A DNA stretch of 24,254 nucleotides from a virus, in IMG/VR virus record IMGVR_UViG_3300047564_002913, positions 1-24,254 of that record; one strand, 5' to 3'. The notes beneath the pieces were generated by a model that saw only the letters and a list, made by a program, of their open reading frames with translations, was not told where the DNA came from and made no database searches. Of the stretch, positions 242 through 20,097 are shown in pieces. Positions within the stretch are counted from its first letter, which is position 1. Each line of letters opens with the position of its first letter. The translations under genes were made by a program, and so were the position numbers.

Positions 242-1092
242 AATTTTTAAATGTAAGTGTTACTCCTCAAAGAACCACTAAACTAGGTAATTACCCAGTT
301 TATAATGAAAAAGATTTTTCATGTGCTAGTAATATTTTTAATTTACCACAAGACATAGAACCTTCTCGGTCTTTTGAAATAGCGACCGGAGGCACAAACT
401 TAATACTACCACCCGATGAAGATCAAGTTGACGGATATGTATGTGGTATATATGAAAGGATTAACAACAAAACTGGGTTAAATTGGAGCCAATCAACAAC
501 TTATGCAGCATATTCAAACCCAGTTTATTGGTCAACACAACCTTCTAGGAATGAATGGATAAGATCAGATAATGTTTTACTATTTAATATATATGACAAT
601 AATAATGCCATAATAAGACAAGAAGTTTTAGATGCGGAATTTATATTTTACAGATCTGGTAGATTTAAACCAGGTTGCTCAAATGTAAGTCTTGTAAACG
701 TAAGAGAAGCAGAAAGAATAGTAGAAATAAAACAACCATTTACTTTACCTCCAAACGAATATGGAGATGAATCAAATGATATGTTTGTTCCGGCAGGAAC
801 CTATGATTTAAATTCTGCACCAGGTGGAGAGTGTGATAACTGTCCAGGAACAATCATATTATCATATTCTAAAAACGGAAGATGGAGATACCTATTAGGA
901 GGACTTAACGGATTTGGTTGTTCGCCGTCAACAGGATATCAACCCTGTCTGTTGTACAGACAAAAAAGGGTTTTTGGTGACTGTGGTGCTGGTGCATGGG
1001 CTAATACTGGATCATATGCAACCCCTCCACAAAATTGGAATTTGTGTCAATTTGAGGGAGTAGGTATTCCAGCATGTGCTGCCTGTGGATAA
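238..1092 (+). CDS. Hypothetical Cys-rich protein, 284 aa
   Basis: This protein of unknown function starts at an ATG that overlaps the upstream stop (ATGA), so it is probably translated by coupling. It has no N-terminal signal peptide or transmembrane helix. The composition is rich in Asn, Gly, Tyr and Pro with scattered aromatic residues, as in beta-rich secreted or virion surface proteins. Cysteines are frequent and concentrate in the C-terminal 90 residues, with an ECDNCPG motif and a final ACAACG tail. Paired cysteines could form disulfides or bind metal, but no family was recognised. A virion or fibre-associated role is only a guess from composition. The next gene starts 8 nt after the stop. 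Confidence 0.7.
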   Translation: MKFLNVSVTPQRTTKLGNYPVYNEKDFSCASNIFNLPQDIEPSRSFEIATGGTNLILPPDEDQVDGYVCGIYERINNKTGLNWSQSTTYAAYSNPVYWSTQPSRNEWIRSDNVLLFNIYDNNNAIIRQEVLDAEFIFYRSGRFKPGCSNVSLVNVREAERIVEIKQPFTLPPNEYGDESNDMFVPAGTYDLNSAPGGECDNCPGTIILSYSKNGRWRYLLGGLNGFGCSPSTGYQPCLLYRQKRVFGDCGAGAWANTGSYATPPQNWNLCQFEGVGIPACAACG

Positions 1093-1095
1093 TTA
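1088..1095 (+). promoter_or_regulatory. Late-type promoter motif GATAATTA
   Basis: GATAATTA ends 5 nt before ATG 1101. It is a variant of the T4 late promoter TATAAATA and has the same phasing to the start codon as nine other genes here. It overlaps the stop codon of the upstream gene. Transcription would start at the A of the ATG. Confidence 0.45.
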
Positions 1096-1100
1096 ATATT

Positions 1101-1364
1101 ATGAAATTTGATTTATTAGTAGAAAAACAATTAAAAGGTTTAGCTTATGGTAAAACTTTAAAAGACATAGCTAAAAAAGCTAAGAAAAAACAAAAAAAGA
1201 AAAAAGAAAGCACTATAGTAGGACAATTAAAAGGAGAACTTAAAAAAGGTGTAAAGGTAGAAAAAGAACACACTAAAAGTTCTAAAATGGCTAAAAAAAT
1301 TGCTATGGATCACTTAATAGAAGATCCAAAATATTATAGTAAACTTAAAAAAGCAGGTCTTTAA
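1101..1364 (+). CDS. DUF5661-like small basic protein
   Basis: An 87-residue, very Lys-rich protein. The C-terminal part (about residues 50-87) carries the pattern G-x-EKEHT...A-x-x-IA-x-DHL-x-E-x-P-x-YY-x-x-L, which matches my memory of the DUF5661 family found in phages and bacteria; its function is unknown. A run of lysines (residues 24-35) could contact nucleic acid. The start is set at ATG 1101, not the in-frame ATG at 1074: the latter would overlap the upstream gene, while 1101 is correctly phased behind a late-type motif. The N-terminus MKFDLLVEK contains an LxE motif like those of T4 internal head proteins cut by the prohead protease, so packaging in the virion is conceivable. Confidence 0.7.
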   Translation: MKFDLLVEKQLKGLAYGKTLKDIAKKAKKKQKKKKESTIVGQLKGELKKGVKVEKEHTKSSKMAKKIAMDHLIEDPKYYSKLKKAGL

Positions 1365-1365
1365 T

Positions 1366-1438
1366 TGCGGAGTACAATTCCGGTGAATTGGGGTGTCTCA
1401 TAAGCATCTATAGGTGGGTTCGACTCCCACCTCCGCTA
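1366..1438 (+). tRNA. tRNA-Met (CAU)
   Basis: A full cloverleaf can be drawn. The acceptor pairs 1367-1372 with 1431-1436, but bases 1 and 72 are a T:T mismatch. The D-stem is CAAT/ATTG with loop TCCGGTGA. The anticodon arm GGTGT/GCATC has loop CTCATAA (anticodon CAT at 1399-1401). The T-arm GTGGG/CCCAC has the canonical loop TTCGACT. CCA is not encoded. The anticodon stem lacks the three G:C pairs of bacterial initiators, so elongator Met, or Ile decoding after lysidine modification, is more likely than fMet despite the open 1:72 pair. Confidence 0.85.
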
Positions 1439-1445
1439 TTTTTAT

Positions 1446-1520
1446 ATGTCGGTGGCAGACAAGAAATGCAGCAGTCTCCAAAACTGCCTTATGTGGGAGC
1501 GTTACCCACCCGACATGCCA
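1446..1520 (+). tRNA. tRNA-Trp (CCA), atypical T-loop
   Basis: The acceptor ATGTCGG/CCGACAT is a perfect 7 bp, followed by discriminator G and an encoded CCA (1518-1520). The anticodon stem GCAGT/ACTGC encloses loop CTCCAAA, giving anticodon CCA (Trp). The T-stem GTGGG/CCCAC is perfect, but its loop is AGCGTTA instead of TTCRANN, and the D-loop lacks the usual GG. Bases 54 and 58 become A and U instead of U and A. The gene starts 8 nt after tRNA-Met, so the two are probably one transcript. Confidence 0.85.
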
Positions 1521-1521
1521 T

Positions 1522-1617
1522 TTTGTACTGTGGTTAAGAGCCTAATAACCCTCGGCGCTGGTCTACGTGGTAGGGTCACCATACGTAAGCAGAGGGCAGA
1601 ACCCATAACAGTACAAA
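1522..1617 (+). ncRNA. Unassigned structured segment between tRNAs (possible divergent tRNA)
   Basis: The segment lies exactly between tRNA-Trp and tRNA-Gly and is closed by a perfect 10 bp helix (1522-1531 with 1608-1617). Internal pairings include GGTT/AACC (1532-1535 with either 1547-1550 or 1600-1603), CCCTC/GAGGG (1549-1553 with 1592-1596) and a hairpin 1565-1571/1578-1586 with a two-base bulge. The size fits a long-variable-arm tRNA and GGTT/AACC sits where a D-stem would, but I could not place an anticodon arm or a T-arm. It may be a degenerate or unusual tRNA, or a rod-like RNA. No convincing ORF explains it. Confidence 0.35.
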
Positions 1618-1623
1618 TTTTTC

Positions 1624-1694
1624 GCGGTGGTAGTATAATAGTAGTACAGGAGTCTTCCAAACTTCGGGCCTCGGAGCGTAACCGTGTCACCGCA
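1624..1694 (+). tRNA. tRNA-Gly (UCC), atypical T-loop
   Basis: The acceptor GCGGTGG/TCACCGC pairs with one G:T. The D-stem is GTAT/GTAC with a 7-nt loop AATAGTA lacking GG. The anticodon stem GGAGT/ACTTC has loop CTTCCAA (anticodon TCC, Gly). The T-stem CTCGG/CCGTG has one T:T mismatch, and the T-loop AGCGTAA again lacks TTC and carries A54/U58, nearly identical to the tRNA-Trp loop at 1498-1504. CCA is not encoded. Confidence 0.75.
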
Positions 1695-1701
1695 TTTTAT
1701 C

Positions 1702-1730
1702 TTGATTTGACTAATAAAATTTGTTATTAT
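1702..1730 (+). promoter_or_regulatory. Sigma70-like promoter for 1737 gene
   Basis: TTGATT (1702-1707), a 17-nt spacer and TATTAT (1725-1730). The -10 ends 6 nt before ATG 1737, so the expected transcription start is the A of the start codon (leaderless mRNA). There is no Shine-Dalgarno sequence. Confidence 0.6.
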
Positions 1731-1736
1731 ATTTAA

Positions 1737-2549
1737 ATGAAAACTGTTGTCATACCAGATGTTCACCAAAGAGTGGATTCTGTAAAATGGATTTTAGAAA
1801 ACGAAAAAAATTACGATGAAGTAGTTTTTCTTGGAGATTGGTTTGACTCTTTTTATGAACCACCAAAAGTCGCAGGTTTTGAACAAACTTGTGAGTATTT
1901 AAAATATCTTGCTCTAGAACATCCTAACAAAGATAAATTTGTTTTTTTAATTGGAAATCATGACTTGAGTTACATTTATGAAAATAGGGATTATTCAATT
2001 CATAGAATTTCTAAAACATTAAAATATTACTGTTCTGGATTTACTATAACAAAAGCTAAAAAATTTCGTCATTCTTTTTTTGATCATGGTTTGAAAGACG
2101 ATTTCTTTTTTGAGCATTTTAAATTTGCACATCAAACTCAAGGTTGGACATTATCTCACGCTGGCATATCACTTCGTCTTTTTCCTTATGGATATACATT
2201 AGATCGTTTTGTAAATGAACTTCTTCCAGATGTATGGAAAAATTTTCGAAATTTAGAATATAATCATAACGAAATTATCTCTGCGGCAGGATACCATCGC
2301 GGTGGTATGCATCCAATTGGAGGGGTTATATGGCATGATTGGAATGCAGAATTTAATTCTACAACTGAAACAGGTAAACAAATTGTAGGCCATACAACTG
2401 TTAGAGAACCAGATTGTATTCATATGAATACGCCTTTAGAGTGTTGGAATCTCGACACCGAAAAAGATTATGGAGTTATTATAGGCGGTATGATGACAAC
2501 CAAGCCTATTAAACTGTCAGTTTCAAACGAAACTCTTCGACATGATTAA
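1737..2549 (+). CDS. Calcineurin-like metallophosphatase
   Basis: A 270-residue member of the calcineurin-like metallo-dependent phosphoesterase superfamily. All the signature blocks are visible in order: PDVH (D8, H10), GDWFD (D34), GNHD (N74, H75), SHAG (H141) and GHT (H219). These residues normally bind two metal ions and hydrolyse phosphomono- or diesters. The overall layout resembles phage lambda-type Ser/Thr protein phosphatases and bis-nucleotide phosphatases. The true substrate cannot be told from the sequence. The gene has its own sigma70-like promoter directly at the start codon and no Shine-Dalgarno sequence. It is followed after 2 nt by tRNA-Asp, so the tRNAs may be cotranscribed. 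Confidence 0.85.
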   Translation: MKTVVIPDVHQRVDSVKWILENEKNYDEVVFLGDWFDSFYEPPKVAGFEQTCEYLKYLALEHPNKDKFVFLIGNHDLSYIYENRDYSIHRISKTLKYYCSGFTITKAKKFRHSFFDHGLKDDFFFEHFKFAHQTQGWTLSHAGISLRLFPYGYTLDRFVNELLPDVWKNFRNLEYNHNEIISAAGYHRGGMHPIGGVIWHDWNAEFNSTTETGKQIVGHTTVREPDCIHMNTPLECWNLDTEKDYGVIIGGMMTTKPIKLSVSNETLRHD

Positions 2550-2551
2550 TA

Positions 2552-2628
2552 GGGATCATAGCTCAGTTGGTTAGAGCGCCTGCCTGTCACGCAGGAAGTC
2601 AGGGGTTCAAGTCCCCTTGGTCCCGCCA
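2552..2628 (+). tRNA. tRNA-Asp (GUC)
   Basis: A canonical bacterial-type tRNA: acceptor GGGATCA/TGGTCCC, D-loop with GG, anticodon arm CCTGC/GCAGG with loop CTGTCAC (anticodon GTC), T-arm GGGG TTCAAGT CCCC, discriminator G and an encoded CCA (2626-2628). It begins 2 nt after the phosphatase stop. Confidence 0.95.
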
Positions 2629-2633
2629 TTTTA

Positions 2634-2706
2634 GGATCTTTAGTGAAATGGACTATCACTCAACGCTACGGACGTTGCATTCCAGGTTCGAATCCTGGAG
2701 GATCCA
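2634..2706 (+). tRNA. tRNA-Arg (ACG)
   Basis: Acceptor GGATCTT/AGGATCC, D-stem GTGA/TCAC with a GG-containing loop, anticodon stem CAACG/CGTTG with loop CTACGGA (anticodon ACG, Arg), and T-arm CCAGG/CCTGG with canonical loop TTCGAAT. CCA is not encoded. It ends 1 nt before the convergent nucleotidyltransferase stop codon. Reading of CGY/CGA would need A34-to-inosine editing. Confidence 0.93.
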
Positions 2707-2707
2707 A

Positions 2708-3478: not shown

Positions 3479-3484
3479 TTTTAA

Positions 3485-3492
3485 TATTTATG
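3485..3492 (-). promoter_or_regulatory. Late-type promoter motif CATAAATA
   Basis: On the minus strand CATAAATA matches the T4 late consensus TATAAATA at 7 of 8 positions and ends 6 nt before the nucleotidyltransferase ATG, predicting an essentially leaderless late transcript. Confidence 0.6.
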
Positions 3493-3500
3493 CTTTTAAC

Positions 3501-3529
3501 TTGCTTTGCCATGAAATTTCATTTAATAT
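3501..3529 (+). promoter_or_regulatory. Sigma70-like promoter for SemiSWEET gene
   Basis: TTGCTT (3501-3506), a 17-nt spacer and TAATAT (3524-3529), ending 6 nt before ATG 3536. The start point would be the A of ATG. It lies just beside the divergent late motif at 3485-3492. Confidence 0.5.
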
Positions 3530-3535
3530 GTACAA

Positions 3536-3883: not shown

Positions 3884-3894
3884 TTCTATTAAAA

Positions 3895-4287: not shown

Positions 4288-4289
4288 TA

Positions 4290-4318: not shown

Positions 4319-4325
4319 ATTTGCT

Positions 4326-4712: not shown

Positions 4713-4716
4713 AGAT

Positions 4717-5313
4717 ATGGACTCTAAACATTTATCACGAGACACAGTTCTAGTTTTAAACCGTAATTGGCAAGCAATTAATACTAAAACACCAATGGAT
4801 GCTATCACTATGATGTATTGTGATGTAGCAACTGGATTGAATATCATCGGTGAAGACTATATGATTCCTTTAAAGTGGAATGATTGGATTTTGCAAAATA
4901 TAGAAGACAGTGATGATTACATTAAAACGATTAGGGGTAATATAAAAATTCCTAAAATCATTGTACTTTGTCAATATGATAAGGTTCCTAAAAAAAGACC
5001 AAAATTTTCAACAAAGAATATTTGGGTTAGAGATGGTGGTATATGTCAATACACAGGTAAAAAATTGACTCCAAATGAAGGCAATATAGATCATTGTTTA
5101 CCTAAAAGCCGAGGAGGTAAAACCGATTGGTATAATTGTGTTTTAGCTCACAAAAAAATTAATGCTAAAAAAGCGAATCAGACACCAGAGGAAGCTGGGT
5201 TAAAATTACTTAAAAAACCAGAGGCTCCTAAAGAACTGCCTGTAACTTTTTACATTAAAAATAAACATCGTATTAAGGAATGGGATGTTTTTTTAAAACA
5301 TGCAACAAACTAG
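4717..5313 (+). CDS. HNH endonuclease
   Basis: A 198-residue protein with an N-terminal module containing VLVLNRNWQAIN (residues 11-22), common in front of stand-alone bacterial and phage HNH domains, and an HNH nuclease domain at about residues 105-160. The core is RDGGICQYTGKKL, then NIDHCLPKSRGG (D125, H126), then WYNCVLAH (N140) and KKINAKKAN (N149), matching the H-N-N pattern; the usual zinc CxxC pairs are incomplete. HNH enzymes cleave DNA with a single metal ion. It may be a free-standing homing endonuclease or a phage DNA-processing enzyme. There is no intron or intein next to it. It lies 4 nt after the upstream gene and overlaps the deaminase by 14 nt. Confidence 0.85.
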   Translation: MDSKHLSRDTVLVLNRNWQAINTKTPMDAITMMYCDVATGLNIIGEDYMIPLKWNDWILQNIEDSDDYIKTIRGNIKIPKIIVLCQYDKVPKKRPKFSTKNIWVRDGGICQYTGKKLTPNEGNIDHCLPKSRGGKTDWYNCVLAHKKINAKKANQTPEEAGLKLLKKPEAPKELPVTFYIKNKHRIKEWDVFLKHATN

Positions 5314-5716
5314 AATATCTTGGGAAGAATATGCGTTGCGTATAGCAGAAGTAGCTGCTTTGCGTTCAGAAGATCCTTATAAAAAGGTAGGAGCATGTGC
5401 TTTAGATCATTGTAATAGAGTTATAGGTGTAGCTTATAACGGTCTGGCTTCTGGTAAAGTGGTTGACGATTCTTTTTGGGCCGATAGAGAAGCTAGATTA
5501 CCATATATGATTCATGCCGAGGCGAATTTGCTTACTCTTTTTAAAAAAGGACAATGTAAAATGCTCGCTTGTACATTATTGCCGTGCCAATCTTGCGCAA
5601 CTATGATTGCAGGATATGGAATTAAAAAGGTGGTATACAAAGAGTTATATAAAAGAGATTCTAGAGCTTTGGATATTTTTAAATTTTATAATATAGAATG
5701 TATACAATTAGGATAA
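5300..5716 (+). CDS. dCMP/cytidine deaminase family protein
   Basis: A 138-residue zinc-dependent deaminase with the two defining motifs: HAEAN (H72 zinc ligand, E74 proton shuttle) and PCQSCA (C96, C99 zinc ligands). The length and the SEDPYKKVGACALD region fit deoxycytidylate deaminase (EC 3.5.4.12), which turns dCMP into dUMP for thymidylate synthesis, rather than tRNA adenosine deaminase. In T4-like phages this enzyme works with ribonucleotide reductase and thymidylate synthase to adjust the dNTP pool; the reductase is encoded nearby on the other strand. The start codon lies inside the HNH gene (14-nt overlap), which suggests coupled translation. Confidence 0.85.
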   Translation: MQQTRISWEEYALRIAEVAALRSEDPYKKVGACALDHCNRVIGVAYNGLASGKVVDDSFWADREARLPYMIHAEANLLTLFKKGQCKMLACTLLPCQSCATMIAGYGIKKVVYKELYKRDSRALDIFKFYNIECIQLG

Positions 5717-5719
5717 ATA
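5712..5719 (+). promoter_or_regulatory. Late-type promoter motif GATAAATA
   Basis: GATAAATA (7 of 8 matches to T4 TATAAATA) overlaps the deaminase stop codon and ends 5 nt before ATG 5725, so transcription should start at the A of the ATG. Confidence 0.65.
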
Positions 5720-5724
5720 CATTC

Positions 5725-6115: not shown

Positions 6116-6126
6116 TTTTTTAGATT
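6105..6126. terminator. Possible bidirectional terminator hairpin
   Basis: AATCTAAA (6105-6112) and TTTAGATT (6119-6126) form a perfect 8 bp inverted repeat with a 6-nt loop that contains or abuts both convergent stop codons. An A-run on the left gives a U-tract for the minus-strand transcript. The stem is AT-rich and weak. Confidence 0.35.
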
Positions 6127-8429
6127 ATTTCACATGCACCTCCAGCACATGCTTGTGCTGCTAATGTATCTGCATCTACATATTGTGCTCTTTCTTCGAT
6201 TGTACTTTCCCAATCAATTTCTTTATATTCTCGTTTAAGATCACACCAAACTTTCCAAAGGTGTACGTGTTTTAAACAGTGAGTTGTTTTGCGAACATCT
6301 CCATTAAAATATCTTGTAGCAAATTGTTTTGCTCTGCGGATCCAATCGTATTTATTAAACCAAGAATCATAAGCCTCTTTGGCTATAAAATATTCTGCCA
6401 AGGCTTTGTTTGATCTATTAGAAGGATATTCTGGTTTTTGCATGTCTTCTGGAGAGGCTAATTTTTCACCATATCCATTTAATGCATCACATGCTTTCCA
6501 GAGATCTTCAAACGCTTTTAATCCGTCTACAATCAACCCGGATGCAAATACGGCAGCATCTCCATATTCTTTAACAATTTCATTGGGTGTTAAAACTGTT
6601 GAAAACGGAGCTTGTGTGTAATCTAAATCTCCCGATGCTGGTAATAATGATATGCCTGCAAACCATTTTTGATTGTCAAAAATGAAATTTTCAACATCCT
6701 CCCACTCATCATCTTTAACGGTAATTGTATTAGAAATATTGTGGCGAATGTATGGTTTAACACAATTGTCTACATTGGTACCATATTCAACCCAGTTTTG
6801 TTGCGACTTTAATACGTTTTTGAGAAGATCAACTGCACTAGTTTGATTTTTTGTAATAGCTCCACTAGGAACCTCACAAAGGAATGAAATGACCTTATCG
6901 GTTTTGTTTGTAGACCAAACTGATTCTTCGACAGCTATAGGATTCTGTCTTTCAAATTCTTGTAGACAAAATTCTGTTTTATTAGCTTGAACCCTTCTAA
7001 TATATCTCCTAGCGTGATGAGGATGGATTCCAGAAGCGGTTCCTAAGATACAAGAGGTTGAACCTGCCGGCTTTGTACAACACGTACGAGCGGATTGATT
7101 AATACCGAGCAAAGTTGCAATTTTTTTATTTGTTTTCTTTACTTCTTCTGCACCTTTCTTTTGAATTTTTTCATTCAAAAGAATTTCTGGGTTATCCATA
7201 ATACCTGTAATTGAAACTCCGAGTAAAGCCTCTCTTTCTACAATTTCTTTAGTTTCTTGTGTTAGGTATTTAAAGTTGGTATACCCTGCCTGTAGTGTAC
7301 CTACGATAGCTGCTGCTCTACAACATTGTAGAAATTTTTCTTCTGTATCGCAATGTCTTCCATTAATTTCAGACAAATTACAAAACTCCCAACCAGACCT
7401 TCCATCTTCTGTTTTAGGATACAAAGCGATTTCTACACAAGGATTGTAGCAAATATCTTCATCATCTAACCAAACAAATCCAGGTTCTCCAAATTCTTTA
7501 GTGCTTTTCATCAAATCTGCAAATTGTTCTTTGGATACTTTGCCTTTAATAAGAGCTGCGCTGTTATTGCTACGTCCTCTTTGAGGATTTTTAATAAACC
7601 AGTCACCAGTTTTAGCTGTAGCCATTTCGGTGTCGTCTTGTGAAAAGAGACAAAGGGTAGCAGAACGTCTAACACCACCACTCAATACAGCATCTCCAAT
7701 ATGCATTATAATATCATAACAATTAATTGGACGAAGCTTACCAGCCCAATCATCTGTTTTAAATTCTGAACTGTTTACACGAGCTTCTAACAACGCTTCG
7801 ATTTTTTGTAAAGAATTAAACAAACCATCCGGACCTGGAGCTAAAAATTGGCCCGCAACCATGGTTCCTTTTGGTCGAATTTGGCTGTAATCAAAGACCA
7901 CTTTTTTCTTTTTATATTGAGAAAATTCTGTATCTGCATCAAAATAAGAAGACAACAATACGCCTACTGCGTCCGCCCAACCTTCAATTGAATCCTCAAT
8001 AACGTGAGTTTTTTCTGAAGATCCTCTTTTAGCTAAATTCGGTAATTTTCCTACATGACATTTTTGAACTGAAAATCCTACACCACATCCACAAAGTAAA
8101 ACATACATTGCTTCTTGGAAAACTCTTGGTCTATCAATATGAGTCGCAGAACAATTGTACAGGCGAACGTTATGCTTAAAAATAGGAGCTCCTCCGAATT
8201 GTAATGTACGCTGTGCTGCTAAGATTCTCTTTTTTCTTTGCTGTGATTCTACAAAATCAATTTCTTCTACCAGTTCAGGATGCTTTTCGATTTGCTCTGT
8301 ATAAAATTGCCTATGCATGTCATAAACTCTTTTAACAGCTTCTGACCAAGTTTCCCTTCTTTTGTTTTCTGGAAGGTAATGTGAATATCGTGAATAAAAT
8401 GTATAGTCGGACAAAGATTTTAAACTCAT
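6120..8429 (-). CDS. nrdJ: Adenosylcobalamin-dependent (class II) ribonucleoside-triphosphate reductase
   Basis: A 769-residue monomeric class II ribonucleotide reductase of the Lactobacillus leichmannii RTPR type (about 739 residues, EC 1.17.4.2). It reduces ribonucleotides to deoxyribonucleotides with a radical generated from vitamin B12. Visible hallmarks are YNCSATHI (C93, reducing Cys), CGCGVGFS (113-120), NPCVE (N329, C331 thiyl radical Cys, E333), EFCNLSE (C350, partner Cys), KPAGSTS in the C-terminal half of the barrel, and the C-terminal redox pair CAGGAC (C761, C766, five apart as in RTPR). All key residues are present, so it should be active. Being oxygen independent and needing no NrdB, it works alone if the host supplies cobalamin. 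A sigma70-like promoter lies directly at its start codon. It pairs functionally with the dCMP deaminase. Confidence 0.95.
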   Translation of the reverse strand: MSLKSLSDYTFYSRYSHYLPENKRRETWSEAVKRVYDMHRQFYTEQIEKHPELVEEIDFVESQQRKKRILAAQRTLQFGGAPIFKHNVRLYNCSATHIDRPRVFQEAMYVLLCGCGVGFSVQKCHVGKLPNLAKRGSSEKTHVIEDSIEGWADAVGVLLSSYFDADTEFSQYKKKKVVFDYSQIRPKGTMVAGQFLAPGPDGLFNSLQKIEALLEARVNSSEFKTDDWAGKLRPINCYDIIMHIGDAVLSGGVRRSATLCLFSQDDTEMATAKTGDWFIKNPQRGRSNNSAALIKGKVSKEQFADLMKSTKEFGEPGFVWLDDEDICYNPCVEIALYPKTEDGRSGWEFCNLSEINGRHCDTEEKFLQCCRAAAIVGTLQAGYTNFKYLTQETKEIVEREALLGVSITGIMDNPEILLNEKIQKKGAEEVKKTNKKIATLLGINQSARTCCTKPAGSTSCILGTASGIHPHHARRYIRRVQANKTEFCLQEFERQNPIAVEESVWSTNKTDKVISFLCEVPSGAITKNQTSAVDLLKNVLKSQQNWVEYGTNVDNCVKPYIRHNISNTITVKDDEWEDVENFIFDNQKWFAGISLLPASGDLDYTQAPFSTVLTPNEIVKEYGDAAVFASGLIVDGLKAFEDLWKACDALNGYGEKLASPEDMQKPEYPSNRSNKALAEYFIAKEAYDSWFNKYDWIRRAKQFATRYFNGDVRKTTHCLKHVHLWKVWCDLKREYKEIDWESTIEERAQYVDADTLAAQACAGGACEII

Positions 8430-8884: not shown

Positions 8885-8905
8885 AATGAATATACTTATA
8901 CACCC

Positions 8906-9271: not shown

Positions 9272-9299
9272 TTGATATTTTTTAAAGCTGTATTATAAT
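9272..9299 (+). promoter_or_regulatory. Sigma70-like promoter for 9307 gene
   Basis: TTGATA (9272-9277), 16 nt, consensus TATAAT (9294-9299), ending 7 nt before ATG 9307. Near-leaderless transcript predicted. Confidence 0.65.
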
Positions 9300-9306: not shown

Positions 9307-10113
9307 ATGGATTTTGAAAGTTTAGTTAAATTAGATCAAAGTTTTGAAAATGTCAAATTCTTTTCAAAAAATCACACATACGAAATAGATGGAGGGTCTG
9401 CGTCGACGTCTGTAACTTCACTATTAAAAAAGTTTGAACAACCTTTTAAAAGAGATGAAATAGCAGAAAGGGTAGCAAAAAGAGATGGTGTTTTAATTGA
9501 AGATGTATTGACACAATGGGATTATAAAAGGGACTACTCTAGTCACAAAGGATCGGAATTTCATTTATTTGCGGAAAACTATTTGCAGAGAAAACAAAAC
9601 ACTATAGATCGTAAAATGTTAGAATCTTTTTTAAGAAGTAAAAATAAAAATTTAACAGAAGTAGAAAACTATTATAAAGAAGTAGCAACATTGATTAAAA
9701 ACTTTTTAGATTTTTATAATTGGTGGAAAGAAAGATATATTTTAATCAAATCAGAATTTGTGGTTGGAGATAAACTAACTAAGATTTGTGGTACTATCGA
9801 CAACCTTTCATATAATATTGAGAAAAAAGAACTAGAATTATTTGATTACAAAACAAATAAGAGTATTGATAAAACAAATACATACGGCAATAAAATGTTA
9901 GCTCCTTTTGATTACTTGCCTCAATGTTCATTAGTTACATATAGTTTACAATTGTGGATATATAAATTAATAATAGAAAGAAATTCGCCATTTAAAATTG
10001 GTGATTTGCATATAGTTTGGGTGGGAGGAGAAAAGAAATGTGAAACTATAGAAGTTTTACAATTGAAAAAAGAAGCAGAAAAAATTTTGGAAATTGGTCC
10101 GGTTAAAAGGTAA
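9307..10113 (+). CDS. PD-(D/E)XK superfamily nuclease (RecB/Cas4-like)
   Basis: A 268-residue nuclease of the RecB/Cas4/PDDEXK_1 type. The motifs in order are: helix motif SHKGSEFH (79-86), KSEFVV with E150, GTIDNL (D165), ELELFDYKTNK (D180, K182, the D-x-K metal-binding core), and QLWIY (Q215-x3-Y219), the QxxxY motif of this clade. The N-terminal part (HTYEIDGG, SVTSLLKKF) is also typical of phage members. Such proteins are DNA exonucleases or nickases acting in recombination, host DNA degradation or replication. No iron-sulfur cluster cysteines are visible, which argues against a true Cas4. It has its own sigma70-like promoter, as expected for an early or middle gene. Confidence 0.8.
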   Translation: MDFESLVKLDQSFENVKFFSKNHTYEIDGGSASTSVTSLLKKFEQPFKRDEIAERVAKRDGVLIEDVLTQWDYKRDYSSHKGSEFHLFAENYLQRKQNTIDRKMLESFLRSKNKNLTEVENYYKEVATLIKNFLDFYNWWKERYILIKSEFVVGDKLTKICGTIDNLSYNIEKKELELFDYKTNKSIDKTNTYGNKMLAPFDYLPQCSLVTYSLQLWIYKLIIERNSPFKIGDLHIVWVGGEKKCETIEVLQLKKEAEKILEIGPVKR

Positions 10114-10116
10114 ATA
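10109..10116 (+). promoter_or_regulatory. Late-type motif GGTAAATA
   Basis: GGTAAATA overlaps the stop of the nuclease gene and ends 13 nt before ATG 10130. It would give a leader of about 7-8 nt, unlike the 5-6 nt spacing of most other late motifs. Confidence 0.4.
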
Positions 10117-10129: not shown

Positions 10130-10954
10130 ATGTCACTCGTTAAATCATATCTATCTGTTTTGGAAGAAAAAGATGGTTCCAGCATTGTTTCTGGCACTGA
10201 GAAACTTGTCGGAGATCTTCCAGGAAAAACTAAAGAACACGTGCCTGCTAATAAAGTTGAAGGTGTAGAAACTCCTGTAGAGGGAGCACACTCACAACAA
10301 GATTCTGAGTCAGAGCCAAAAGAAGTTAAAACAGAATCAGCAGAAGCCTCATTAAACCCTTTTGATGAACTTTATAAAAAAGTTTTAGCAGAAGAATCTT
10401 GGGAATATGAAACAGAAGCTGAAGAAAATCCAATGGAAATGGATTTAGAAGTTCCTTCAACAGACACAGAAGTTGATATGGATTTCACAGCAACAGATTC
10501 AGAAGGTTCAGAAGAAGAAGAAATGGAAGACGAACCAGAAGGTTTAGAAGCAGTATTAGATCATCTTAAACAAGCAGTATCAGCTTTAGAAAAATTAGTT
10601 GATGAAGCAGATGAAGATGAAGACATGGAAGAAGAAGGCATGGACATGATGAAAGAAGAAGATGATGAAATGGAAGAAGAGATGTCCGATGAAACCCTAC
10701 CAGAAGCTGTAGAAGCAGAAGTAGAAGGTCACGCCTTAGTCGACCAAGAGAAATTAGCTAAAGGTTTAAATAAACCAACTAGTGCAACAGTTAAAGGTGC
10801 AGTACCAGTTACTAAAGGTAAAGCACAAGTTGTTAAAGGTGCAAAAGTAGACGGTAAACCAGCTCCTTGCATGGCGAAACCAGATGCTTTAACAAATAAA
10901 AGCGCATCAAACGTAGGTGGAGTTAAACCAGGCAAAGATCTTTTTGCACAGTAA
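10130..10954 (+). CDS. Very acidic low-complexity protein, possible prohead core/internal protein
   Basis: A 274-residue protein with a central region (about 90-205) dominated by Glu, Asp and Met, including a predicted helix LEAVLDHLKQAVSALEKLVDEAD. The last 60 residues are different: basic, with repeated VKG(A) units and a KPGKDLFAQ end. The N-terminus MSLVKSYLSVLEEKDG is an amphipathic helix with LEE. T4-like phages have acidic prohead core or scaffold proteins and internal proteins with such leaders, and the late motif fits that class, so this is my tentative reading; no homology was recognised. A strong terminator follows the stop by about 24 nt. Confidence 0.6.
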   Translation: MSLVKSYLSVLEEKDGSSIVSGTEKLVGDLPGKTKEHVPANKVEGVETPVEGAHSQQDSESEPKEVKTESAEASLNPFDELYKKVLAEESWEYETEAEENPMEMDLEVPSTDTEVDMDFTATDSEGSEEEEMEDEPEGLEAVLDHLKQAVSALEKLVDEADEDEDMEEEGMDMMKEEDDEMEEEMSDETLPEAVEAEVEGHALVDQEKLAKGLNKPTSATVKGAVPVTKGKAQVVKGAKVDGKPAPCMAKPDALTNKSASNVGGVKPGKDLFAQ

Positions 10955-11009: not shown

Positions 11010-11017
11010 CCTAAGTA
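11010..11017 (+). promoter_or_regulatory. Late-type promoter motif CCTAAGTA
   Basis: CCTAAGTA begins 2 nt after the terminator T-run and ends 5 nt before ATG 11023. The TAAGTA core is shared with the tail-tube genes at 16977 and 17559 and with the 20098 gene. Confidence 0.45.
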
Positions 11018-13445: not shown

Positions 13446-13453
13446 TATTTATG
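13446..13453 (-). promoter_or_regulatory. Late-type promoter motif CATAAATA
   Basis: On the minus strand CATAAATA is embedded in the last codons and stop of PhoH and ends 6 nt before the zinc-ribbon ATG. The motif and spacing match those of the nucleotidyltransferase at 3478. Confidence 0.55.
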
Positions 13454-14234
13454 CGTGGTTGTTTAATTTATACTGGAAAGTTTCGAGTTTATCCACAACA
13501 AATTTTACAAATTCAGATCTTACAATATCTTCTTTATTAAATTGAAAACCATGTATACCCTGATTAATGCTATCCTGACAGCTAAACATTTCTATCATCT
13601 TGGTAAATCCACCCTTTTTATTATCTGGTAGATCTGATTGATGAGGATCTCCTAGAAATATTATTTTAGAAAATTCACCTAATCTTGTAATTGTAGTAAC
13701 TAATTCTCTAAATGTAATATTTTGACATTCATCGACAATTATACATTTAGCAGGCCAATGCAATCCGCGAATATAATTCACAGGCATAGCATTAACTCGG
13801 GAATCTGCATGCAATCTTTTAATTGTATGTTGGTCTAAAAACTCTTCCATTTTTTCTACAAATGGAGCCATGTAAGCTTCAAATTTTTCGTTTATATCCC
13901 CAGGCAAATAACCTATTTTACTATCAGCACTTTCGACTGCGCTGCGGACGAATATTATATCTGAAACTTTTTTTTGCTTCAGCAGTTGTAAACCTGCATA
14001 AACTGCTGTACTAGTTTTTGATACACCTGCAGGACCTTCAATAAAAATACATCTACTAGATTTATCTAAAATTATGTCTATTAGTTGCTTTTGTTTATTA
14101 GACCATGGCAACTCTCTTATAAAGAAATCAAAATCTACTTTATTTCTTTGCCAGACATAAGGAGAACGATCTTTAGACTCTGTCTCTACTTTTTGTTCTA
14201 AAGATCTTACTTTAGTTCGGGTTTTTTTACCCAT
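13449..14234 (-). CDS. phoH: PhoH-like P-loop ATPase
   Basis: A 261-residue PhoH-family protein. It shows a Walker A motif GPAGVSKTS (67-75, with Ser in place of the usual second Gly), Walker B CIIVDECQNIT (164-174), and the family motif GDPHQSDLP (195-203). PhoH is an RNA helicase-like ATPase domain widespread in marine and other myophages; its role in infection is unclear, with links to phosphate stress or RNA metabolism in hosts proposed. The N-terminal 40 residues are charged. A GGTAAATA motif lies 9 nt upstream of the ATG. It is the second gene of the minus-strand island between neck and sheath genes. Confidence 0.92.
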   Translation of the reverse strand: MGKKTRTKVRSLEQKVETESKDRSPYVWQRNKVDFDFFIRELPWSNKQKQLIDIILDKSSRCIFIEGPAGVSKTSTAVYAGLQLLKQKKVSDIIFVRSAVESADSKIGYLPGDINEKFEAYMAPFVEKMEEFLDQHTIKRLHADSRVNAMPVNYIRGLHWPAKCIIVDECQNITFRELVTTITRLGEFSKIIFLGDPHQSDLPDNKKGGFTKMIEMFSCQDSINQGIHGFQFNKEDIVRSEFVKFVVDKLETFQYKLNNHA

Positions 14235-14241: not shown

Positions 14242-14249
14242 TCTATTTA
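14242..14249 (-). promoter_or_regulatory. Possible late-type motif GGTAAATA upstream of phoH
   Basis: On the minus strand GGTAAATA ends 9 nt before the phoH ATG, slightly out of phase with the 5-6 nt rule of other genes. It could give a leader of 3-4 nt. Confidence 0.35.
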
Positions 14250-14678: not shown

Positions 14679-14684
14679 TTTATA

Positions 14685-14692
14685 TAATTATA
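14685..14692 (-). promoter_or_regulatory. Late-type promoter motif TATAATTA
   Basis: On the minus strand TATAATTA ends 6 nt before ATG 14678. The same bases also form an extended -10 (TGGTATAAT) 8 nt from the ATG, so early use by host sigma70 cannot be excluded. Confidence 0.5.
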
Positions 14693-14742: not shown

Positions 14743-14750
14743 GATAAATA
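14743..14750 (+). promoter_or_regulatory. Late-type promoter motif GATAAATA
   Basis: GATAAATA sits in the 85-nt gap upstream of the tail sheath gene, 13 nt before ATG 14764, identical to the motif at 5712. It gives a short leader of about 7-8 nt. Confidence 0.6.
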
Positions 14751-14763
14751 TTTGCAATATTAT

Positions 14764-16956
14764 ATGGCAACTAGAACAATTCAATCACCTGGTGTACAAA
14801 TTAACGAGTTAGATTTAAGCTTAGTAGCAAGAACCGCTGCTGGGACAAATGTATTCTTAACCGGATTTGCCGACCAAGGTCCTACTGATGAAATTATAAA
14901 TGTCGGAAGCATTTCCGAGTTTGAAGATATTTTTGGAGCACCCACTAACGCAGCAGAAAGATACCTATATCACTCAGCTCGTCAAATTTTAACACAATCT
15001 CCTGGCAATCTTTTAGTAACTAGAATGCCATACGGTTCCGCATTAGGCGCAGGATTTTCAAATTCTTACAGCGCTTTAGTTTATCCTGTCAGTACTAATA
15101 GTTCTTCTTATGAAAACGCTACAGCTTTCAGAGTTTTAGAACCAAAATCAATTTTATTAACAGATGACCAGTACAACCAAATTGTAGAGAACGAAATCCC
15201 AAATGGTTGGGGTTCAAACTACACAGGAGCTTCAATAAATTCATTTTCAGATTTAGGAAAAGCTGGTATCGTTGTATTAAATCCTTCTAAAGCAGCAGTT
15301 AATAATCTTTTTGAAGGTTATTATGTTGGTATTGCAGATAACTCAGAAAACAATCCAGCATCAGACTTCGTAAGTATAACTGGTATTAAAGCCGTTTCAC
15401 AAATTGTTAACGGTAACAATCAAACATTTACCAATGTTCCGTCTTCTAGACTGGCATTCCAATTAACTCAACCTTTTACAGATGCTGGAACTAGTATTTC
15501 AGAATATATTGAAAAATTCCCAAGAGGATACGATTTTGCAAATCCTTACTATAATGATTCTCTAACAATTGTATTGTTTAAGATTCGTTCTACAAAATAT
15601 ACTCAAGATTCTGTAACTTTAGACTTTATAACAACAGAAGGTTATACAGGTTCTTTATATTCTCAAAAGAAACAAGCATCAGATGTAAGCTTGACAGATG
15701 AGTCTTTCTTCTTAGAAGATGTTGTCAATAACGCATCAGGAAATCTTCGAGTTTTGGTAAATCCAAACATTGCTAATAAAGGTACATGGAGACTTGACAA
15801 TGGTAACCCAGCCAAAACTGTAAGAGTTGATCAAGCAACAAAAAACCTTTATTCACAAGGTGTTTACGTGTCAAATACAGATTCAAGCGCTAAAAACATA
15901 GGTAACATACCTGCTAAACTAGATCGCATCTTACGTCAAATTGATAATTTAGATATCGATTTAGATTTAACTTGTGAAGCTGGTTTAGGTACCGTTTGGG
16001 TAGGAACCGTTGAAAAAGCAACAGACTTAGGTGTTAGCGAATATGCCACAACCTTTGACGACACATATCAAGTTGATATTTCTGTTCTAGAAACCCAAAC
16101 TACAGATTCTGTAGGAGGTGTAGCTTCAATATACAACGATATTGCAAATCAATTCATTGCCTTTGCAGATAAAACACGCAAAGACCATATGTTTATTGCA
16201 GATCCTTTAAGATATATATTCGTTCAAGGATTCAATGCAAAAACAAGTGGCAAAACCGGATATGTGTTCTCATCCGACATATACTGGCCTCTTAAAAACC
16301 TGTACGCTGGTGATGTATCAAGCTATGCAGCAGTTTATGGAAACTGGCTCAAAACAACGGATACAGCTTCTAGCAAACAGGTTTGGATACCAGCATCTGG
16401 TTATGTAGCAGCAACTATTGCTCAAACAACTCAAGCAAACTTCCCTTGGACAGCTCCTGCTGGATTCAACAAAGGTGTGCTGACAAATGTTACAGATGTA
16501 GCAGTCAATCCTACACAAAAACAAAGAGATCTGATGTATCGTATTAATGTTAACCCTATAGCATTTTTCCCTGGTGATGGATATGTTATATTCGGACAAA
16601 AAACATTATACACAAAACCATCTGCATTTGACAGAATCAATGTTAGAAGATTGTTCCTAACACTAGAAAAAACAACACAAAGCTTGTTAAAGTTCTACGT
16701 GTTTGAACCAAATTCTTTCGCAACAAGAGCAAGACTTGTAAACGCTTTAGCACCTATCTTTGATAATGCTAGAAACAATGACGGCTTGTACGATTATAAG
16801 ATAGTATGTGATGAACGTAATAACCCACCTGATATCATTGACAACAATGAATTAAGAGTGTCGATTTACATTCAACCTGTTAGAACAGCAGAGTTCATAT
16901 TGGCTGACTTCATCGCAACTAGAACTGGTGTCAACTTTGACGAACTGATTGGATAA
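14764..16956 (+). CDS. Contractile tail sheath protein (T4 gp18-like)
   Basis: A 730-residue tail sheath subunit, close in size to T4 gp18 (659 residues) and longer like many marine relatives. The N-terminus RTIQSPGVQINELDLS...GTNVFLTGFADQGPTDE is diagnostic for sheath proteins, as is the C-terminal domain with KIVCDERNNPPDIIDNNEL followed by LRVSIYIQPVRTAEFILADF. Sheath subunits form a helical sleeve around the tube and contract to drive it through the host envelope. A TTG at 14752 extends the frame by four codons, but ATG 14764 is the conventional start. The gene opens the morphogenesis cluster; tube protein follows after 20 nt. Confidence 0.95.
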   Translation: MATRTIQSPGVQINELDLSLVARTAAGTNVFLTGFADQGPTDEIINVGSISEFEDIFGAPTNAAERYLYHSARQILTQSPGNLLVTRMPYGSALGAGFSNSYSALVYPVSTNSSSYENATAFRVLEPKSILLTDDQYNQIVENEIPNGWGSNYTGASINSFSDLGKAGIVVLNPSKAAVNNLFEGYYVGIADNSENNPASDFVSITGIKAVSQIVNGNNQTFTNVPSSRLAFQLTQPFTDAGTSISEYIEKFPRGYDFANPYYNDSLTIVLFKIRSTKYTQDSVTLDFITTEGYTGSLYSQKKQASDVSLTDESFFLEDVVNNASGNLRVLVNPNIANKGTWRLDNGNPAKTVRVDQATKNLYSQGVYVSNTDSSAKNIGNIPAKLDRILRQIDNLDIDLDLTCEAGLGTVWVGTVEKATDLGVSEYATTFDDTYQVDISVLETQTTDSVGGVASIYNDIANQFIAFADKTRKDHMFIADPLRYIFVQGFNAKTSGKTGYVFSSDIYWPLKNLYAGDVSSYAAVYGNWLKTTDTASSKQVWIPASGYVAATIAQTTQANFPWTAPAGFNKGVLTNVTDVAVNPTQKQRDLMYRINVNPIAFFPGDGYVIFGQKTLYTKPSAFDRINVRRLFLTLEKTTQSLLKFYVFEPNSFATRARLVNALAPIFDNARNNDGLYDYKIVCDERNNPPDIIDNNELRVSIYIQPVRTAEFILADFIATRTGVNFDELIG

Positions 16957-16962
16957 TTGGAG

Positions 16963-16970
16963 GATAAGTA
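16963..16970 (+). promoter_or_regulatory. Late-type promoter motif GATAAGTA
   Basis: GATAAGTA ends 6 nt before ATG 16977. It overlaps GGAGG (16959-16963), which is 13 nt from the ATG, too far for an efficient Shine-Dalgarno sequence. A separate start could give the abundant tube protein extra transcripts. Confidence 0.45.
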
Positions 16971-16976
16971 AATTAT

Positions 16977-17531
16977 ATGCCTAATATATTCGCCAACCAA
17001 GACATTCAAAATTTCTATCAAAACGCAATCAATAGAGATTTTGCCAGAACTAACTTATTTAGAATACTAAACATCAATTCAGGATCAACAAATATAAACT
17101 TTGGTCCTGAAGATTTAGTATACATTACATCAACAACTCTTCCACAAAGAGCTATTACAAATGTACCAACACCGTTCATGGGTTTAACGTTCAACGTTCC
17201 CGGAACAGCTAATTACCCAAACAGTAATGCTTGGAATGTTACATTCAGAATGCCACAAGATTTAGGTATTAGAGCTAAATTAGAAGCATGGTCACGTGGT
17301 ACTTTTGATGATCAAACAAGTTCTGGTGCATATGAAGTTAAAAATTTAGGAACCGTTACTTTATCACTAATGGGTAAAAACGGCAATCCTCTTCGCACCT
17401 ATGTATTGGTAGGCGCTTATTGCACTAACATTGGTGACTATAATTTAGATATTACAGCTGCCGGTGAAATAGTGACTCAACAAGCAACAATTGCTTACCA
17501 ATACTGGGGTCCACCAGCAGTAGCGGTTTAA
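16977..17531 (+). CDS. Tail tube protein (T4 gp19-like)
   Basis: A 184-residue tail tube subunit, similar in length to T4 gp19 (163 residues). Supporting features are NAINRDFARTNLFRILNI near the N-terminus, the segment VYITSTTLPQRAITNVPTPFMGLTFNVPGTANY, the fold-typical WNVTFRMPQDLGIRAKLEAW, and a C-terminal QQATIAYQYW strand; the order and spacing match gp19-like tubes. It forms the inner tube inside the sheath, through which DNA passes. It is placed, as in T4, directly after the sheath gene, with its own late-type motif. Confidence 0.9.
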   Translation: MPNIFANQDIQNFYQNAINRDFARTNLFRILNINSGSTNINFGPEDLVYITSTTLPQRAITNVPTPFMGLTFNVPGTANYPNSNAWNVTFRMPQDLGIRAKLEAWSRGTFDDQTSSGAYEVKNLGTVTLSLMGKNGNPLRTYVLVGAYCTNIGDYNLDITAAGEIVTQQATIAYQYWGPPAVAV

Positions 17532-17545
17532 TTTAAAGTTTTATA

Positions 17546-17553
17546 GGTAAGTA
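17546..17553 (+). promoter_or_regulatory. Late-type promoter motif GGTAAGTA
   Basis: GGTAAGTA ends 5 nt before ATG 17559, with the same TAAGTA core as the previous gene. The AGG could also act as a weak ribosome site (9 nt from the ATG). Confidence 0.4.
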
Positions 17554-17558
17554 GAAGT

Positions 17559-18257
17559 ATGGCTAGTAGTCCATATGTATTTTACCTAGACATTTTAAGT
17601 AAATGGCCTACATCCATTGCTTTAGCAAGTCAATGGTTCATGTACTTCAATTTAGATTCGGTTGGAGCAATAACAACTAATTTATCAGAAGCGGTACAAA
17701 ATTACGAAGGTGGGTCTACAGCTTGGGATATATCTCAAAACACTGTTAACCAATTAATAAAACCTGAATTCCAAACCTCAGTAACCAATTTAATTGGATG
17801 TGTATTTGTTAGACAAGTAGTATTACCAACGGAAACTATTACAGCAGCTAATCAAGGATTGAATTATGGTGGTTATCAAGCTCCTGCTACTACTAATGGA
17901 AGAAACCCTTATCAAAAATTATCTGTAACATTCACAGAAACAAATGCGTCTTTTATAGATTTAATTCTACGTCCCTGGGCAATATTAGTTGGTTACAATG
18001 GATTAGTTGCAAGAGCAGCTGGTTCTAGAAAAAATGTAAAATGTAACTATGCAGACGTTATTAGTTTAGCTAAAACTGGTGCAGGTAGTCCAATGACATT
18101 ACGTAAAGCTTTTAGATTTTATAATTTAGCCCCTATTAACGTACAAGGATTAACTAATACATATGCCTCTGAAGGGTTGATGTATACAAACGTAGATTTC
18201 GTATATGATAGTTATTCTGTATTTGATCTAAACTCTTCATCATTAATGACCTTTTAA
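17559..18257 (+). CDS. Second tail-tube-like protein (gp19-family paralogue)
   Basis: A 232-residue protein that looks like a distant tail tube family member: a start with YVFYLDILSKWPT, a Thr-rich loop, KLSVTFTETNASFIDLILRPWAILVGYNG (a strand-helix resembling the core of gp19 tubes), and a C-terminal VDFVYDSYSVFDLN strand. Being directly downstream of the main tube gene, it may cap or start the tube, or be a tail-completion protein; T4 uses gp3, gp48 and gp54 with related folds for such tasks. Assignment is by fold-like pattern and context. Its TAA overlaps the next ATG (TAATG). Confidence 0.6.
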   Translation: MASSPYVFYLDILSKWPTSIALASQWFMYFNLDSVGAITTNLSEAVQNYEGGSTAWDISQNTVNQLIKPEFQTSVTNLIGCVFVRQVVLPTETITAANQGLNYGGYQAPATTNGRNPYQKLSVTFTETNASFIDLILRPWAILVGYNGLVARAAGSRKNVKCNYADVISLAKTGAGSPMTLRKAFRFYNLAPINVQGLTNTYASEGLMYTNVDFVYDSYSVFDLNSSSLMTF

Positions 18258-19240
18258 TGACTCAACATTTTTTACATAACGTTGAATTACCTTTTTCTAA
18301 AAAACAGATAAGATACCGAGAATTATCTAGTGAGGATCAACTTTTTTTAGCTAAGGCTAATGTATTACTGCCAAGTGACCCGGAATTTGTAAATGAATAT
18401 GCATCTTTATTAACAGAAATAATATCTAAATGTTTAAAAAATCCAAACGAATTGTATGAATTAAACCTTATAGAATATATCATGTTTTTGACAAAACTAA
18501 GAATAGTTAGTGTAGGCGCGGATATTGAATTAGAGTTTGATCCTCAAGATGGTGAAAAAGAGATTGCTAAAAAAGTTAAAGTAACTATTAATTTAAATAA
18601 TTTATTACAAAAAATATATAATCTATCGTTAAAAGCTTTAAATGAAAATGTAATAAAAATTGAAAATTTCGAAATTGAATTAGATTGGCCTTCTTTAAAA
18701 TCTCAAAATTATTTTATTAACATATCAAAAGGAGATAAAAATTTAAATAATATTTTAGATTCTTTGTGTGAATATGTGAAATATATTAAGTTTAATGGTG
18801 AATGTATAAATTTTTTAAATTTTACACATGACGAAAAATTAAAAATATATGAAAAATTGCCTATAGCGATTCAAAATAAATTACAAGTTACGATTTTAAA
18901 AATGATAAAAGATATTTCGGAAGAATCTTTGTTTGATTTATCCAAATTAGAAGAATGGAAATTTGGTCTTTACGACACCAATTATTTAGAAATATTAAGA
19001 TTAATTTTTAGTTTCAATTTAAGAAATATATATCAAGAATATTACATTTTAGCTTCAAAAAAAATAAACCCAGAATATGTAAATCAATTATCTGTATCGG
19101 AACGCAAAACCTTTATAACCTTTGTTGAAGAAGAAATTAAAGCTAAAAAAGAAGAATCTGCATCACCTTCTCAACAAGTAAACCCAGCATTCGGAGAATC
19201 CCCCGAACTGCAAAATTTGATGCGTGAATTTGAAGGGTGA
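18257..19240 (+). CDS. T4 gp26-like baseplate hub protein
   Basis: A 327-residue protein whose N-terminus, VELPFSKKQIRYRELSSEDQLFLAKAN, fits the T4 baseplate family (PF12322, gp26): a LP motif, a YRELxxxEQ block and a following helix. The gp26 protein of T4 (208 residues) helps assemble the central baseplate hub; this one is longer because of an extra Lys/Asn-rich helical region and a charged C-terminal tail (EEEIKAKKEESASPSQ). It starts at the A of a TAATG overlap with the preceding gene, so translation is coupled. The next gene looks like a divergent member of the same family. Confidence 0.65.
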   Translation: MTQHFLHNVELPFSKKQIRYRELSSEDQLFLAKANVLLPSDPEFVNEYASLLTEIISKCLKNPNELYELNLIEYIMFLTKLRIVSVGADIELEFDPQDGEKEIAKKVKVTINLNNLLQKIYNLSLKALNENVIKIENFEIELDWPSLKSQNYFINISKGDKNLNNILDSLCEYVKYIKFNGECINFLNFTHDEKLKIYEKLPIAIQNKLQVTILKMIKDISEESLFDLSKLEEWKFGLYDTNYLEILRLIFSFNLRNIYQEYYILASKKINPEYVNQLSVSERKTFITFVEEEIKAKKEESASPSQQVNPAFGESPELQNLMREFEG

Positions 19241-19243
19241 TTA

Positions 19244-19251
19244 GTTAATTA
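19244..19251 (+). promoter_or_regulatory. Possible late-type motif GTTAATTA
   Basis: GTTAATTA ends 5 nt before ATG 19257. It is the weakest of the phased motifs (TAATTA core as at 1088 and 14685), and AT-rich chance is a real alternative. Confidence 0.3.
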
Positions 19252-19256
19252 ATAAT

Positions 19257-20066
19257 ATGCCAGAAGAATTGGAACAAACCAATGTAACATTAAACTTTGT
19301 TGATGCATTAAAAGCATTAGATAAAGTTTCGACAGAAAATTTTGTAAGCAAAATTTGGATTCCGTCTAAACAAACGGAAGTTCAAGTTAAAGAAATTAAT
19401 GCAAAACAACAAAAAAAACTTTTACAAAGTGCTTTAGAAGAATTAACAACACGAGCGTCATTTACAGAAATATTTTATAACATACTGTCAGAAAACATAT
19501 TAGACAAAGAGGTTTTAAAAACTTTAACCTCTGTTGATAAGATTTCCCTTGCATTGGGAATGAGAAATCAAATTTCAAATAAATTAACGGTTGAAATACA
19601 AGAAGATCCACAAGTAACACAAGTGGTTGATTTAAATCAAATAATGTTAAAATTTAAAAATTTAACACACCCATCTCCTAAACCTATAGCCGTAGGTGAT
19701 ATAGTTATTGAAGTAAGTGTTCCTACAATAGAATCTGAAATTAAATTTGAGCAATTACAAACTAAAAATAAACAAACAAATGAAGTAGAAATGATTAAAG
19801 CTACTATAGTAGAAGCATTCCTAATAGAAACTTCAAAATATGTTACAAAAATGGTTATAAATGGAATAGATGTAAATTTATCACCTTTAACCGCAGCTCA
19901 AAAAGTCAATTTGGTAGAAAAATTACCAGCAAACGCAATTCAGAATATACTAGAATATATAGCAGAATTAAAACAAAATATAGATAATGTTTTAATGGTT
20001 CATAATGAAGAATATAAAGTATCTAAGCCTATAACCATTGACAGCTCATTGTATCTAAACATTTAA
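19257..20066 (+). CDS. Second gp26/baseplate-hub-like protein
   Basis: A 269-residue, helical, Lys/Glu-rich protein. The block KIWIPSKQTEVQVKEINAKQQKKLLQSALE (31-60) has the same layout as the LP...YRELxxxEQ start of the upstream gp26-like gene, and VDKISLALGMRNQ matches the helix that follows in that family. I therefore read it as a divergent tandem relative in the baseplate hub, possibly with gp27/gp51-like duties. Confidence is moderate because similarity is judged by eye. It sits between gp26-like and tape-measure-like genes, the usual place for hub components. Confidence 0.55.
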   Translation: MPEELEQTNVTLNFVDALKALDKVSTENFVSKIWIPSKQTEVQVKEINAKQQKKLLQSALEELTTRASFTEIFYNILSENILDKEVLKTLTSVDKISLALGMRNQISNKLTVEIQEDPQVTQVVDLNQIMLKFKNLTHPSPKPIAVGDIVIEVSVPTIESEIKFEQLQTKNKQTNEVEMIKATIVEAFLIETSKYVTKMVINGIDVNLSPLTAAQKVNLVEKLPANAIQNILEYIAELKQNIDNVLMVHNEEYKVSKPITIDSSLYLNI

Positions 20067-20083
20067 TTAAAAAGGGCATATAC

Positions 20084-20091
20084 TCTAAGTA
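20084..20091 (+). promoter_or_regulatory. Late-type promoter motif TCTAAGTA
   Basis: TCTAAGTA lies in the 31-nt gap and ends 6 nt before ATG 20098. The TAAGTA core recurs at 11010, 16963 and 17546. Confidence 0.4.
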
Positions 20092-20097
20092 TTTTAT

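Follow-up and report, generated by a model that had tools for sequence, protein, structure and literature searches.

Putative T4-type late promoters abutting start codons in a clade of uncultured T4-superfamily phages

In the textbook case of late transcription in bacteriophage T4, promoter, leader and Shine-Dalgarno site are distinct elements. The late promoters of T4 (gp55, gp33 and the gp45 clamp; TATAAATA) have their late element at -13 to -6, the octamer beginning with A(-13) (PMC2988020), and the late promoter consensus of cyanophage S-PM2 is NATAAATA (PMC2984593). Leaderless translation in mycobacteria accepts ATG or GTG at +1, but neither TTG nor CTG (PMC4633059). Here we investigated a 24,254-base fragment of the IMG/VR record IMGVR_UViG_3300047564_002913 (about 33% G+C; hereafter the window), whose source is an uncultured contractile-tailed phage of the T4 superfamily. 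A preliminary description of this fragment had claimed that a T4-late-like motif with the core TAADTA (D being A, G or T) ends 5-6 nucleotides (nt) before ten start codons, and that transcripts would begin at or beside the ATG. The motif pattern was confirmed as real, and the motif is very probably the -10 element (TATA box) of gp55-dependent T4-type late promoters, which abut their genes and would thereby yield leaderless late mRNA.

The putative promoters of the window and its relatives are like those of T4 in the hexamer core, the gp55 homologue, the use at virion genes and the lack of a strong -35 element. They differ in layout: in T4 the motif peaks 27-28 nt upstream of the ATG with a Shine-Dalgarno site at 5-7 nt, whereas in the clade to which the window belongs it lies at 5-6 nt with none between. 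Cyanophage late promoters have a near-identical consensus and gp55, but the motif stands 19-40 nt upstream in S-PM2 and Syn1. In S-PM2, Syn1, DSL-LC03, AG-345-L05 and phiM12 it is placed mostly 20-40 nt upstream, and the comparison with these phages and T4 rules out an ordinary T4-like geometry. T4-like loci from GTDB genomes and metagenome-assembled genomes show the same distant placing and many Shine-Dalgarno sites; RM378 gave no usable motif peak. Shine-Dalgarno sites have been lost in the clade, being almost absent from its loci and common in T4-like loci outside it, and the usual T4 layout of a Shine-Dalgarno leader between promoter and gene, which is not strictly required of a T4-type late promoter system, was not found there. 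Mycobacterial leaderless genes share the start codon expected at +1, the restriction to ATG and GTG and the lack of a Shine-Dalgarno site (PMC4633059), but they are cellular, whereas here the layout spans both promoter classes of a lytic phage. The layout is not seen in T4 or the compared cyanophages, and no earlier report of leaderless late mRNAs in T4-like phages was found in a literature search that covered few subscription papers.

The motif in the window and its relatives

Against cultured phages, the tail sheath protein of the window found best matches of 31-40% identity over about half the protein or less. Eighty uncultured relatives from IMG/VR, most of which span the whole sheath at about 40-67% identity, were used for comparison. 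Ten longer relative records were read fully or almost fully; their open reading frames (ORFs) were called mechanically, and counts were pooled over these related genomes. Genes were named by comparison with proteins of T4, S-PM2, Syn1 and HTVC008M.

All ten motif-ATG pairs of the preliminary description are present, and its three cognates with short leaders (at 10130, 14764 and 14234) also read as it had reported; it overlooked a further site, TAAGTA 8 nt before 8884 on the minus strand, whose orthologues have the motif at 5 nt. Shuffles led us to expect 135 copies of TAADTA in the whole window, which has only 65, and despite this depletion the motif is concentrated at gene starts. When the leftmost ATG is taken as the start, it stands at 5-6 nt in 6 of the 32 genes of the window, while 1000 shuffles gave a mean of 0.30 and a maximum of 3, so the enrichment against shuffled controls was borne out. 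When other in-frame ATGs were allowed, 5 genes fell at 5 nt and 4 at 6 nt, with at most 3 at any other offset. Moreover, the motif is conserved in orthologues at 8 of the 10 sites; the exceptions are the site before 3478 on the minus strand, whose homologues are without it, and the site before 5725, which has no homologue.

The peak is common to close, intermediate and distant relatives. Genes in the 5-6 nt class greatly exceeded expectation in G005 (28 vs 2.2), G006 (35 vs 2.8), G008 (40 vs 2.0), G012 (38 vs 2.3), G007 (23 vs 2.1) and G014 (25 vs 1.2). In the ten pooled records, the numbers of genes with TAARTA at spacings of 0 to 8 nt were 3, 7, 8, 7, 12, 127, 102, 54 and 35. Such an abrupt rise between 4 nt (12 genes) and 5 nt (127 genes) is expected if transcription starts at a fixed distance, since with closer placing the message would lose its start codon. 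Indeed, an octamer at -13 to -6 followed by five nucleotides puts the predicted +1 on the A of the ATG. The base before the ATG is T in 107 of the 127 genes of the 5-nt class and in 51% of genes with neither promoter pattern. A pyrimidine-purine step favours transcription initiation, and this T is as expected for initiation at such a step. Without gene calls, a count of TAADTA-N5-ATG over raw contigs gave no useful information.

The preliminary description had also seen the relaxed seventh octamer base (A, G or T) as a departure from T4. This holds for the window's subclade, where the core is TAADTA and the fourth hexamer base varies accordingly; more distant members return to ATAAATA, the consensus of T4 and the cyanophages.

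Gene classes, late factors and start codons

The motif was restricted to one class of genes. Among virion or packaging genes, 55 of 87 had it 5-13 nt before the start, and among replication genes none of 80 (Fisher p about 1e-21, which is optimistic owing to relatedness; by gene family, 10 of 13 vs 0 of 13). Every examined gp13, gp17 and gp19 carried it, as did most gp18, gp20 and gp21. The preliminary description had pointed to gp55 and gp33 as homologues to look for. The gp55 late sigma factor was found in all ten searched records over 80 kb, and its core domain is conserved in the alignment; the gp44 clamp loader was present in most records. The positions around -35 held little information. 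The proposal of T4-type late promoters with transcripts starting at or beside the ATG is thus supported by the virion-gene restriction, gp55, the 5-nt floor and the clustering of GTG starts at 5 nt, and the late mRNAs are predicted from the spacing to be leaderless, with +1 on the start codon.

Two independent signs bear this out, and the start codons are the first. The share of cases in which GTG opened a frame of at least 60 codons was 30 of 44 at 5 nt, 3 of 23 at 6 nt and 7 of 19 at 4 nt. Of the other codons standing at 5 nt, ATG began such a frame in 139 of 162 cases, TTG in only 3 of 45 and CTG in 1 of 21. Most of the GTG genes at 5 nt are followed by no ATG for 40 codons, and among them are several pairs of orthologues shared by G012 and G014. 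The use of GTG but hardly of TTG or CTG at exactly 5 nt agrees with the ATG/GTG-only rule of leaderless translation.

Early genes appear to follow the same arrangement, which goes beyond what the preliminary description had seen. A sigma70 -10 element that ends 6 nt before an ATG puts +1 on its A. The pattern TTGA-N15..19-TANNNT peaked exactly there, with 66 matches, where positions beyond 20 nt had about 3 each and a scrambled control gave 13. GTG starts also peaked at this spacing (12 of 32 at 6 nt), and a looser form 5-8 nt upstream marked 25 of 80 replication genes vs 3 of 87 virion genes. A single translation signal could hardly account for two unrelated -10 elements that each keep to the distance expected of them.

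Proposed mechanism and its alternatives

In the mechanism that we propose, gp55 would bind the motif as the -10 element of the late promoter, and RNA polymerase would begin with the start codon's first base or about one base earlier. Ribosomes recognising a 5'-terminal AUG or GUG would translate the resulting leaderless late mRNAs, and sigma70-type promoters that stop 6 nt short of the start would serve early genes likewise. We consider it likely that a deep clade of the T4 superfamily runs nearly its whole lytic programme (sigma70 and gp55) on leaderless mRNAs through this fusion of promoter and start codon, that Shine-Dalgarno leaders serve only exceptions, one being the major capsid gene of some members, that the pelagiphage HTVC008M made a separate partial switch, and that the tie between codon and spacing is a genomic record of exact transcription starts.

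Several observations weigh against the proposal. Among the virion genes, gp3, gp4 and gp23 are without the motif; in G005-G007, gp23 (major capsid) has an AGGAG-type leader and no late motif nearby, so the hosts of these phages probably use Shine-Dalgarno sites. Some genes have spacings of 9-13 nt, for which short leaders are predicted, and 'leaderless' should be read as the main mode and not as the state of every gene. Upstream of late sites, TTGA is somewhat overrepresented (52 of 347, vs 25 in the scrambled control), so a few of these may be sigma70 promoters. The gp55 gene lies outside the window fragment, and gp33, a small and fast-evolving protein, was not detected in the ten clade records by the phrog_254 profile, which matched S-PM2 and HTVC008M.

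Instead of a promoter, the motif might be an AT-rich element of the mRNA that takes the place of the Shine-Dalgarno site in translation initiation. Its closeness to the start codon and the rarity of Shine-Dalgarno sites in the clade would suit such an element, but replication genes, which need translation too, never carry the motif, and the floor at 5 nt is one-sided. Since the motif also fits the gp55 consensus, GTG is coupled to spacing and the unrelated sigma70 -10 peaks at its own distance, we rejected this explanation as very unlikely. Somewhat less remote, though still improbable, is the idea that the late promoters are real and their transcripts usually carry leaders of 1-8 nt, the exact ATG start having no special role: ATG genes do occur at 6, 7, 8 and up to 13 nt, and gp17 and gp18 stand at 6-13 nt in most members, but the mode at 5 nt, the steady fall after it and the concentration of GTG starts at 5 nt argue otherwise.

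That chance or artefact produced the pattern, from AT-richness, TAA stops of preceding genes and start codons chosen by eye, is scarcely credible. The window has only 33% G+C, the TAA at 1090 and 5714 doubles as the stop codon of the preceding ORF (two of the ten sites), and three of the ten starts (1101, 5725 and 11023) have an in-frame ATG upstream; homologues back 1101 and 11023, and 5725 has none to decide. However, shuffle tests in seven sequences and the conservation at orthologues contradict this explanation, and TAA is the stop of a long preceding frame at just 48 of 347 pooled clade sites. TAACTA would share a stop-codon artefact, yet shows no peak at 5-6 nt, and thus the artefact is rejected.

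Range of the layout and other features

On the sheath tree, which is a FastTree tree only and leaves the deep placement of T4 uncertain, leaderless and leadered states need only two changes, and all 51 loci scored leaderless sit in one clade of 72 rows. That clade also holds a leadered branch (L043/L055/L057), one row of unclear state and 17 that had too few genes for scoring. The members of the leadered branch, inside or beside the clade, have usual leaders with Shine-Dalgarno sites, and could show how the switch happened or was reversed.

A cultured phage provides a test case for the layout. In the Pelagibacter phage HTVC008M (NC_020484; L173, L229), about a dozen annotated starts have TAAATA exactly 5 nt in front of them, among them those of gp2, gp3, gp4, gp25, gp48, the tape-measure gene and a wedge gene. 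Its gp18, gp19, gp23, replication genes and others have Shine-Dalgarno leaders, giving a mixed mode, and it showed no sigma70 peak at 6 nt. HTVC008M is annotated as Kyanoviridae and hence falls outside the window's clade by annotation. The authors of a survey of pelagimyophages reported no success in predicting late promoters for these genomes (PMC7029224); promoters set against the start codon could be one reason why they were missed. No earlier report of the HTVC008M promoter layout was found in the accessible literature.

It thus seems that promoter and start codon have become one in a whole lineage, where the site chosen for transcription to start would also fix where translation begins, and this with two sigma factors. 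Gene starts and transcription starts would then be callable from sequence in uncultured phages. The layout also predicts a host that translates leaderless mRNA well. In the search for this host, a GTDB scan with the sheath alignment gave distant relatives only (at most 49% identity over part of the protein); no WhiB gene was found, hence no pointer to an actinobacterial host, and no PsbA.

Table 1. Putative promoter elements and named genes of the window
Feature	Position	Strand	Remarks
Late -10 element TAATTA	1090..1095	+	5 nt before ATG 1101; TAA is the stop of ORF 238-1092; TAAGTA at 5 nt in two near-identical homologues, none in a third
Candidate early sigma70-type promoter	1702..1730	+	Ends 6 nt before ATG 1737; loose consensus match only
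Late -10 element TAAATA	3485..3490	-	6 nt before ATG 3478; absent in two homologues, weaker
Late -10 element TAAATA	5714..5719	+	5 nt before ATG 5725; TAA is the stop of ORF 5300-5716; no homologues found, weaker
Ribonucleotide reductase	6120-8429	-	
Late -10 element TAAGTA	8893..8898	-	8 nt before ATG 8884; TAAGTA at 5 nt in orthologues
Candidate early sigma70-type promoter	9272..9299	+	Ends 7 nt before ATG 9307 (exonuclease); loose consensus match only
Late -10 element TAAATA	10111..10116	+	13 nt before ATG 10130; predicted leader about 8 nt; kept in orthologues
Late -10 element TAAGTA	11012..11017	+	5 nt before ATG 11023; CCTAAGTA at 5-6 nt in orthologues
Late -10 element TAAATA	13446..13451	-	6 nt before ATG 13439; at 8-9 nt in orthologues
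PhoH-like protein	13449-14234	-	
Late -10 element TAAATA	14244..14249	-	9 nt before ATG 14234 (PhoH-like); kept in orthologues
TAATTA	14685..14690	-	6 nt before ATG 14678; overlaps TATAAT, so could be late or sigma70; three homologues keep TATAATTA
Late -10 element TAAATA	14745..14750	+	13 nt before ATG 14764 (gp18 sheath); predicted leader about 8 nt
gp18 tail sheath	14764-16956	+	
Late -10 element TAAGTA	16965..16970	+	6 nt before ATG 16977 (gp19 tail tube)
gp19 tail tube	16977-17531	+	
Late -10 element TAAGTA	17548..17553	+	5 nt before ATG 17559; kept in orthologues
T4 baseplate protein	18257-19240		
Late -10 element TAATTA	19246..19251	+	5 nt before ATG 19257; kept in L073 and L012
Late -10 element TAAGTA	20086..20091	+	6 nt before ATG 20098 (tape measure-like); kept in homologues

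A lone weak match to T4 gp33 (G007, E 8e-4) was rejected, as it belongs to a conserved family of about 130 amino acids near gp55 that is not gp33-like. The proteins of this family (G007 101513; G006 154249; G005 108229) end in LETT and are like UvsY in size and neighbourhood.

The window contains four tRNA genes. The leftmost ATG of its ORF 1446-1736 coincides with the first base of a tRNA-Trp gene (1446-1520), so the true start, if this ORF is a gene, would be further in. Among the relatives, a phage-encoded tmRNA gene was predicted at 283-688 of L117 (G012), with a tag peptide of 33 residues, which is unusually long.

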